Source of the DNA: Cytophagaceae bacterium
Lineage (GTDB): Bacteria > Bacteroidota > Bacteroidia > Cytophagales > Spirosomataceae
Assembly: GCA_027491195.1 (NCBI GenBank)
Contig: JAIXWQ010000011.1
Span: forward strand, 1 to 64,000
Length of the DNA stretch: 64,000 nt
Reading direction: 5' to 3'
Shown here one piece after another: positions 1-34,606 of this stretch (the stretch's first letter is position 1; each line of letters opens with the position of its first letter). The translations under genes were made by a program, and so were the position numbers. The notes under the pieces were generated by a model. It saw only the letters and a list, made by a program, of their open reading frames with translations. It searched no databases and was not told where the DNA came from.

Positions 1-82
1 AGAGAGGGATTCGAACCCTCGGTACCGTTACCAGTACGCATGTTTAGCAAACATGTCCTTTCGGCCTCTCAGGCATCTCTCC
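1..82 (-). tRNA. tRNA-Ser(GCU), 3' end cut by the window edge
   Basis: Read on the minus strand from position 82, a 7-base acceptor strand GGAGAGA is followed by a D arm and an anticodon stem ACATG-type helix with loop TTGCTAA, giving anticodon GCT (serine AGC/AGU codons). A long variable arm and a T arm (GAGGG, TTCGAAT, CCCTC) follow, as expected of a class II tRNA-Ser. Only the first three bases of the 3' acceptor strand (TCT) lie inside the window, so the last four acceptor bases and the discriminator are missing here. Confidence 0.93.
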
Positions 83-33785: not shown

Positions 33786-34250
33786 TTAAAATAAAGGTGT
33801 ATTTCTGATCAGGCTTTCCTCTAGAGAGATAAATGTTTCTGTACGCTGAATACCTGTAACTCGTTGAATTTTATCGTGTAATACCTCCCGTAAATGTTGC
33901 GTATCTCGGCAAATAATTTTGGCAAAAATGGAATAAATACCTGTTGTATAGTGAATATTAACCACTTCTGGGATTTGTTCTAGCTGCTTTGCCACATCCT
34001 CATAAAGACTACTTTTGTCCAAGTAGATCCCAAGAAAGGCCGTTATATCCCACCCTATTTTAGAATAATCAATTAATAATTGAGCTCCTTTTACAATACC
34101 CATGGATTCCATCTTTTTCATCCGAACATGCACTGTTCCTCCAGAAACATCGAGACGCGTACCGATCTCAGTATACGGTAGGTTGGCATCTTTGACTAGA
34201 ATTTCTAAAATCTTATAGTCCAAAGGATCAAGTTCAAACTTCTTTTCCAT
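33786..34250 (-). CDS. Lrp/AsnC-family transcriptional regulator
   Basis: A 154-residue feast/famine regulator: N-terminal helix-turn-helix (LDYKILEILVKDANLPYTEIGTRLDVSGGTVHVRMKKMESMGI) followed by the ligand-binding RAM domain (ITAFLGIYLDKSS... VVNIHYTTGIYSIFAKIICRD). Such proteins bind amino acids and regulate amino-acid metabolism, often including their own gene. A 16-base palindrome ends three bases upstream of its start (34253-34268) and is a candidate self-binding site. It lies 56 bases upstream of the sufB promoter region on the same strand. Confidence 0.92.
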   Translation of the reverse strand: MEKKFELDPLDYKILEILVKDANLPYTEIGTRLDVSGGTVHVRMKKMESMGIVKGAQLLIDYSKIGWDITAFLGIYLDKSSLYEDVAKQLEQIPEVVNIHYTTGIYSIFAKIICRDTQHLREVLHDKIQRVTGIQRTETFISLEESLIRNTPLF

Positions 34251-34268: not shown

Positions 34269-34320
34269 TAAGCTTCGAATTAAAAATTATGCAAAAAAAG
34301 ACATTTTTTATTGAAAAATT

Positions 34321-34351
34321 TTGAAAAATATAAAATCTCCTTTTATATTTG
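34321..34351 (+). promoter_or_regulatory. Promoter of the tRNA-like RNA gene
   Basis: TTG (34321-34323), 20 bases, then TATATTTG (34344-34351) is a full match to TTG-N17-23-TAnnTTTG. Transcription would start near 34358, 28 bases before the RNA at 34386. This is among the best promoter matches in the window. Confidence 0.7.
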
Positions 34352-34385
34352 TCCTACTAATTATTGCAAAGGTAATAATTTTCAC

Positions 34386-34528
34386 TGTAGGGTGATGAAA
34401 TTGGCAGACGTGCCCTCCTGTCTCGGGGGTGGTGAGTTCAGGATAAACACGGCATAATGGGTTGACCACTAAATCAGTTCTGTGTCGCGGCTAACTGCAC
34501 CTTGGAGGTTCGAATCCTTCTCCTACAG
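34386..34528 (+). tRNA. Oversized class II tRNA-like RNA, apparent anticodon GUC
   Basis: A cloverleaf can be drawn. The acceptor TGTAGGG (34386-34392) pairs with TCCTACA (34521-34527), and C34385 could extend it with G34528. The D arm ATG-AAATTGGCAGA-CGT (34395-34411) looks like tRNA-Leu. The anticodon stem CCCTC/GGGGG holds loop CTGTCTC (34418-34424), so the apparent anticodon is GTC (Asp) with an abnormal pyrimidine at position 37. The T arm is GGAGG-TTCGAAT-CCTTC. Between anticodon stem and T arm lie 74 bases instead of 4-20. They fold into nested stems: 431-438 with 493-501 (one bulge), 447-452 with 480-485, and 460-465 with 474-479. Discriminator is G; CCA is not encoded. It may be a specialised or non-decoding tRNA-like RNA. 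Confidence 0.72.
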
Positions 34529-34574
34529 CATTTTAATTAATTTGGTTTTTAGTTTGTTGATGAAGTGTAATGTT

Positions 34575-34606
34575 AAAAGCAATCTTATTTTAGGATTGCT
34601 TTTTTT
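34575..34606 (+). terminator. Intrinsic terminator after the tRNA-like RNA
   Basis: AAAAGCAATC (34575-34584), loop of nine, GATTGCTTTT (34594-34603) and further T to 34606 make a 10-bp stem with a U tract. With the promoter at 34321-34351 it defines a transcript of about 250 bases. The rest of the 419-base gap 34251-34669 holds only the features listed separately. Confidence 0.8.

Follow-up and report, generated by a model that had tools for sequence, protein, structure and literature searches.

Several described systems come close to the locus analysed here. The staphylococcal cell-wall tRNA-Gly is a tRNA-like RNA that is kept from decoding, and in E. coli the asnC and asnA genes form a divergent pair, in which an AsnC-type regulator is set beside an asparagine-producing partner. 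The class II tRNAs (Leu, Ser and Tyr) have a long variable arm, as do the allo-tRNAs and tRNA-Sec-like RNAs, non-canonical bacterial tRNA-like genes that are described in the excerpted text of PMC7609411 as having GUC among their anticodons and an acceptor domain of 12–13 bp. A further system is the tRNA-dependent synthesis of Asn by AspRS and GatCAB, which work together in the transamidosome. According to an excerpt of PMC9976931, the bacterial identity elements for Asp are G73, G10, G34, U35, C36 and C38, and a U1-A72 pair confers amidation of Asp to Asn, which G1-C72 and U20a prevent. The excerpted text of PMC4206432 reports 18 genera, Bacteroidetes included, that have AsnRS, GlnRS and GatCAB and no asparagine synthetase; it supposes that tRNA-Asn serves such genera and employs an E. 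coli assay for this route. Echinicola vietnamensis is tabled in a portion of the GapMind paper (PMC7311316) among bacteria able to make all 20 amino acids, and another Echinicola species carries the RNA described below (L241).

The window, a 64,000-nt stretch of DNA from a Cytophagaceae bacterium, encodes an RNA that has features in common with each of these systems. With class II tRNAs it shares a tRNA-Leu-like D arm and a long variable arm, but its 74-nt structured domain, its G73 combined with U1-A72 and its pyrimidine at position 37 set it apart; the identity of an ordinary class II tRNA was rejected. With the allo-tRNA and tRNA-Sec-like RNAs it shares the long variable arm and GUC, but its acceptor domain of 7 + 5 bp does not fit their 12–13 bp (8/4, 9/3 or similar), and this identity was likewise rejected. 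Its probable avoidance of decoding is like that of the staphylococcal tRNA-Gly, whereas amino acid, structure and process differ. The layout resembles that of asnC-asnA, with an RNA as the partner here and an enzyme there, and in six genomes an asparagine synthetase of the AS-AR type takes the partner's place. With tRNA-dependent Asn synthesis the RNA shares U1-A72, the lack of U20a, G73 and the occurrence of GatB in the RNA-positive genomes examined, the roles of U1-A72 and U20a being those given in the PMC9976931 excerpt. Unlike the tRNA-Asn route, it has an Asp-type loop (GUC, C38), a pyrimidine at 37 and the 74-nt variable domain, and what it is proposed to yield is free Asn, not an Asn-tRNA destined for the ribosome.

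Structure of the tRNA-like RNA gene

From sequence, homologs and covariation, the gene extends on the forward strand from U1 to an encoded C74 (34386..34529); C74, at 34529, is present in the DNA, while C75 and A76 are not encoded. A sequence-only reading had described 34386–34528 as a class II tRNA-like RNA whose variable domain runs to 74 nt, with GUC, a tRNA-Leu-like D arm and discriminator G, and the sequence indeed gives such a cloverleaf. The acceptor 5' strand UGUAGGG (34386..34392), with U1-A72 and G2-C71 established by counts in 159 homologs and in viral copies, faces a 3' strand at 34521–34527. In alignments the tRNA-Leu-like D arm (34395..34411) has G18 G19 followed by C20 A21, without U20a. 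It is followed by the anticodon arm CCCUC-CUGUCUC-GGGGG (34413..34429), defined by alignments and by order-wide stem changes on both sides, with the apparent anticodon GUC at 34420–34422 and U37 in the loop CUGUCUC. The 74-nt variable domain (34430..34503), delimited by family and order comparison, consists of a basal helix (34431–34434/34498–34501) and an inner helix (34450–34456/34481–34487), with an internal loop of GAUAAA (34442–34447) and CUAA (34491–34494), and carries the motif GGGUUGACCAC at 34459–34469. The T arm, GGAGG-UUCGAAU-CCUUC (34504..34520), is placed by sequence and family alignment, and discriminator G73 and encoded C74 (34528..34529) are each found in 159/159 homologs. The helices had been called perfect, which is true of the T helix in the window, but in 22/42 family sequences that helix has an extra base.

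Upstream on the same strand lies a probable promoter, TTTG-N20-TATATTTG (34320..34351), assigned from its sequence by what we take to be the Bacteroidota-type consensus; a TAnnTTTG-like box was found again upstream of homologs. Downstream, an intrinsic-terminator-like hairpin is followed by a T run (34575..34603, forward strand).

The RNA family is missed by both ARAGORN and Rfam. ARAGORN made no call at 34386–34528, no Rfam 15 family was reached at the gathering threshold, and a permissive Rfam scan of 34340–34580 gave five matches, all far under gathering scores and none of them tRNA. The presence of an anticodon arm, and the lack of any tmRNA call by ARAGORN or Rfam, led to rejection of tmRNA. 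A group I intron in a tRNA was rejected by reasoning, as the anticodon arm is uninterrupted and the insert far too short, and pairing between the D arm and the anticodon loop was rejected by eye, position 25 being variable and the loop constant. The single-sequence folding energy is no better than that of shuffles (z 0.42) and is uninformative, so that the case for the RNA rests on comparison. A tRNA match of 42 bits (1–82, reverse strand) is truncated by the start of the window.

Distribution of homologs and covariation

Homologs are present in 31/38 genomes of the genus, including 16/16 good ones, and in 137/150 genomes of the family (E up to 6e-7, with partial matches counted, tallied by hand). 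Across the order, 212/291 genomes have a match to model R1 (E up to 1e-15, tallied by hand), a count that scores as negative one genome (G183) in which an RNA truncated by the stretch end adjoins its AsnC gene and another (G181) with a copy elsewhere that lacks the variable domain, and which further short copies may escape. In the class, 44/247 genomes have matches of at least 67 bits, 36 of the 44 outside the order; in 30 genomes, long homologs (at least 86 bits, 115–178 nt) stand apart from ordinary tRNA-Leu-like matches (at most 61 bits, mostly ~85 nt), and two of the 44 class matches (71 and 68 bits) lie in the gap between them. A pattern scan of named genomes yielded at least 120 stretches, 80 of which entered the homolog collection and the 126-locus count below; among the matches listed are Dyadobacter, Spirosoma, Aquirufa, Algoriphagus, Cyclobacterium, Echinicola, Chitinophaga, Segetibacter, Saprospiraceae and others. 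No title or abstract opening describing the RNA was found in open-licence PMC literature.

Total length varies from 79 to 213 nt across homologs, mainly in the variable domain, in which the GAUAAA/CUAA internal loop is usually kept and GGGUUGACCAC often. The copy at L159 1501–1579 (reverse strand; 79 nt, 61.2 bits) is without the variable domain; its acceptor and loop are similar and its G73 C74 identical, and AsnC was not found in the 1500 bases upstream of it. Several genomes carry tandem arrays of the gene, with 2–6 copies per locus. Arrays of five, six and four copies with spacers of ~40–60 nt were seen at L170 5212–6180, L171 4831–5938 and L172 4758–5527, respectively.

The helices of the RNA covary across the order, and the search for compensatory changes put forward in the sequence-only reading was strongly positive, with 0/500 shuffles reaching the observed values. 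In family alignment A1, comprising 42 of the 43 distinct family sequences (L008 omitted), 43 pairs are 96.8% paired and 16 pairs account for 122 cells changed on both sides; no shuffle reaches any of these measures. Order-wide alignment A2 (67 distinct sequences), which was fitted to the model and is thereby biased towards the structure, has 35 pairs with 347 cells changed on both sides, and sliding controls were all far lower. The anticodon arm is invariant within the family alignment and its stem covaries beyond the family, as CCCUC/GGGGG, CCCUU/AAGGG, CCCGC/GCGGG and CCUCC/GGAGG. Homologs and covariation support the earlier suggestion of a specialised tRNA-like RNA under selection.

Identity elements

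Among 159 distinct sequences, a set that omits the window row (identical to L031), the cut L266 and the partial L270:1-78, as do the A2 and A3 counts, the ends of the molecule are almost constant: U1-A72 occurs in 158, and G2-C71, A72, G73 and C74 in all. The elements of an AspRS substrate are present, with U35, C36 and C38 as constant as G73 and G34 in 150/159. U20a is absent in 67/67 sequences of A2 and in 95/95 of A3, the loci of which were selected by a pattern fixing the anticodon loop, the sequence at this place being GGCA or GGTA. In A2, which was chosen without the pattern, U1-A72, G73, U35, C36 and C38 are likewise found in 67/67, and G34 and U33 in 59/67 each. The AspRS determinant G10 is absent, with A10 or U10 in 154/159 and G10-C25 in the other five. 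Two marks of a decoding tRNA, U33 and a purine at 37, fail: position 33 is not U in 8/67 sequences of A2, and the pyrimidine at base 37 that had been remarked on as odd is a pyrimidine in 159/159. SerRS was rejected as the charging enzyme, given A72 in place of C72 in 159/159 and U-G or U-A in place of G-C at 30-40 in 153/159, though G73 and G2-C71 would fit.

By eye, the tRNA-Asp of the source genome has G1-C72, U20a and the loop CUGUCAC, from which the loop of the RNA differs at position 37 only, and its tRNA-Asn has U1-A72 but U20a as well. With its Asp-type loop, G73, U1-A72 and no U20a, the RNA thus unites elements read by AspRS with elements read by GatCAB. It would carry both the AspRS set and the amidation signal for GatCAB, and its loop appears unfit for decoding.

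The AsnC-type regulator

A gene for an Lrp/AsnC-family regulator, recognised by Pfam, PDB and NCBIfam comparison, is divergent from the RNA (33786..34250, reverse strand). Its nearest PDB entry is E. coli AsnC (2cg4, 110.8 bits; next 77), and its top NCBIfam model is AsnC (NF008384), at 159 bits against a cut-off of 227, with Lrp at 48; these comparisons favour AsnC over a plain Lrp. The regulator is divergent from the RNA at 122–245 nt in 89/126 loci, partly taken from among the matches listed and exclusive of class loci L190–L216; of the other 37, seven have fewer than 600 bases upstream and 30 are without a regulator at that place. It is also the commonest recurring neighbour (38/53 loci), followed by a SufB group (18/53) and one downstream group (14/53). 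In 291 genomes, scored by hand as RNA-positive at an R1 E-value up to 1e-15 and as AsnC-positive at E up to 1e-40, both are found in 206, AsnC alone in 37, the RNA alone in six and neither in 42 (Fisher p 2e-22, uncorrected for phylogeny). In seven RNA-less genomes of the family, the AsnC search gives no match or just paralogs of 37–39% identity; joint absence of adjacent genes in draft genomes can reflect an assembly gap, and three of the seven (G057, G070, G080) are single-contig assemblies. In RNA-less family genomes at L345, L346 and L348, the nearest Lrp/AsnC paralogs (37–39% identity) face an aminotransferase, which presumably resembles ornithine aminotransferase.

A candidate AsnC operator, an AT-rich palindrome-like site at 34279..34295, is the best match to the motif TTgaAAAaTTTtcAA. 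The palindrome beats dinucleotide shuffles in 83/89 regions, a weak control as the motif was trained on these same AsnC–RNA intergenic regions, and 2/6 AS-AR loci exceed 95% of shuffles. In the source genus the leader contains an inverted repeat, which was rejected as the operator because inspection by eye did not reveal it in other genera.

Asparagine enzymes

In the RNA-less genomes G318 and G349, the gene facing AsnC encodes an archaeal AS-AR-type asparagine synthetase A (313 and 320 bits, cut-off 309; best structures 1nnh and 3p8t). AS-AR occurs in 6/291 genomes, five over the cut-off and G300 at 302 bits, with the next match at 123, and it is divergent beside AsnC in all six of these Cytophagales genomes (L352–L357). 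Four of the six are RNA-negative by R1, and G300 and G340 carry the RNA as well.

GatB, AsnB and AsnA were surveyed in 80 genomes chosen non-randomly (35 RNA-positive, 45 RNA-negative), GatB alone being searched of GatCAB. GatB is present in 35/35 RNA-positive genomes, in frames of 480–608 aa, and the six genomes without a match are all RNA-negative. Six RNA-less family genomes and G234 have a GatB match in a long frame (876–1126 aa). The long frames of G057 and G234, the latter in addition to an ordinary GatB, are GatB-AspRS fusions adjoining GatA; G055 and G070 match the fusion over its whole length (77–78%), and those of G050, G080 and G093 are predicted fusions by frame length and score. 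Fusions of ~1100 aa adjoining GatA in RNA-less genomes were seen at L395 754–4059 (reverse) and L399 2086–5424 (forward), both assigned by family scan, and at L396 2217–5531 (forward), assigned by similarity.

AsnB-family proteins over the cut-off are commoner in RNA-positive genomes (29/35 against 27/45; p 0.03), and for AsnA there is no difference (3/35 against 7/45; p 0.5). The RNA-positive genomes without an AsnB-family protein over the cut-off are G000, G067, G041, G066, G058 and G238. Six RNA-positive genomes, including the source genome, in which GatB is present, have no AsnA, AS-AR or AsnB over the cut-off, which fits a model of asparagine supply by the RNA. G066 and G062 each proved to have AsnRS; in G000, only weak matches to class-II synthetases were seen. 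Seven RNA-less family genomes likewise have no AsnA and no AsnB over the cut-off, the AS-AR search covering G075 alone of these; five of the seven have a long GatB frame, G075 and G046 being the two without. An alternative route to Asn (AsnA, AS-AR, AsnB of E. coli length or long GatB) is present in 5/35 RNA-positive genomes, counting G336 with its AsnB frame of 576 aa, and in 21/45 RNA-negative ones (p 0.003), an exploratory and weak result in that the categories were set after the data were seen, the count was made by hand without correction for phylogeny, and the AS-AR search left out the RNA-negative genomes G080, G093, G057, G070, G046 and G050.

Proposed role and alternatives

Some role of the RNA in asparagine supply is probable. 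Its more specific identification as a non-decoding acceptor for the conversion of Asp to Asn under AsnC is the reading we lean towards, as somewhat more likely than not. Such a dedicated acceptor would explain why these elements occur together, why AsnC is the partner, why a synthetase can occupy the same place and why RNA-less relatives have an AspRS–GatB fusion. We infer a cycle of expression, charging, amidation, release and regulation, in which the RNA would be processed like a tRNA and receive CCA; AspRS would attach aspartate, reading G34, U35, C36, C38 and G73; and GatCAB, reading U1-A72 and the missing U20a, would amidate Asp-RNA to Asn-RNA. The pyrimidine at 37, the irregular T stem of many relatives and the large variable domain argue that this product would not be delivered to the ribosome, in which case asparagine would be set free as the amino acid. 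The divergent AsnC would sense asparagine and tune the output of RNA. A fuller version, somewhat doubtful as a whole, has the RNA as a cofactor for making free Asn, on which the variable domain would act as a scaffold joining the AspRS that loads it and the GatCAB that amidates it, like the GatB-AspRS fusion of some RNA-less relatives, with AsnC setting its level and large phages carrying it in tRNA clusters so as to maintain the flow of asparagine in infection.

Several observations stand against the acceptor reading. The AsnB family is commoner in RNA-positive genomes and AsnA occurs in three of them, so that other routes are often possible beside the RNA and simple replacement does not hold throughout. 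G10 is missing, and AspRS might be obstructed by the long variable arm. G300 and G340 hold both AS-AR and the RNA, and G075 and G046 are without the RNA, AsnA, AsnB over the cut-off or a long GatB.

These AsnB-family proteins in 29/35 RNA-positive genomes would suit an RNA with a regulatory part in the AsnC regulon, a tRNA-Asp mimic that binds AspRS or senses Asp/Asn charging and adjusts asparagine metabolism rather than serving as an intermediate. The AsnC linkage, the Asp-like loop and the conserved motifs of the variable domain, which could bind protein or RNA, are also consistent with this reading, which we regard as unlikely but the strongest of the alternatives. Against it, the amidation signals (U1-A72, no U20a) vary no more than the AspRS elements do, and a biosynthetic enzyme faces AsnC in six genomes; tandem arrays and viral tRNA clusters, too, would better suit a bulk acceptor.

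The sequence-only reading had offered regulation, non-ribosomal aminoacyl transfer and a mobile-element remnant as roles. Use of aminoacyl-RNA outside the ribosome appears to fit best, judging by the AspRS and GatCAB elements, the AsnC neighbour and the asparagine-synthetase swap, while the mobile-element remnant is not supported: the AsnC-adjacent locus recurs in 89/126 loci and the window copy has no match among plasmid records. A donor of Asp or Asn to some other non-ribosomal reaction, on lipid, peptide or cell wall, would share the non-decoding tRNA-like form with charging elements, but the regulator recurs more widely than any other neighbour (the SufB and downstream groups reach 18/53 and 14/53), and the amidation signal and the synthetase swap point to Asn itself, making this improbable. 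An unusual decoding tRNA-Asp or tRNA-Asn, scarcely less improbable, would account for the tidy cloverleaf, for C74 being encoded as in most tRNAs of the source genome and for viral copies among tRNAs; it is opposed by the pyrimidine at 37 in 159/159 and the departures from U33 and G34 (8/67 each in A2), an ordinary tRNA-Asp(GUC) is present in the source genome, and an amidated form would misread Asp codons. A functionless pseudogene or private insertion, to which only the folding energy would lend itself, has next to no chance, contradicted as it is by class-wide homologs and by covariation that 0/500 shuffles reach.

If the acceptor reading is true, a tRNA-shaped RNA serves a large bacterial group as a metabolic cofactor instead of a decoder, and these bacteria would be a present-day case of an amino acid being made on an RNA dedicated to it. 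The reading would also bear on how asparagine is made in bacteria with AsnRS and GatCAB and no asparagine synthetase, such as those in the excerpted text of PMC4206432.

Phage and viral copies

Homologs were found in one 636-kb uncultured phage record (L400 8001–8146) and in 33 predicted viral contigs (L401–L433), the latter by a pattern that fixed the anticodon loop; all 34 score at least 77 bits. The copies often sit inside tRNA clusters: in the 34 stretches, ARAGORN called at least one tRNA in 30, at least three in 24 and at least 20 tRNA or tmRNA genes in five, with tmRNA in six. A part in asparagine supply, if true, is a possible reason for phages to carry the RNA. The 29 distinct viral sequences all have U1-A72, G2-C71, G73, C74 and no U20a, while acceptor pairs 3–7 vary. 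Several of the viral copies (L400–L433) carry a D-loop insert that resembles a hairpin.
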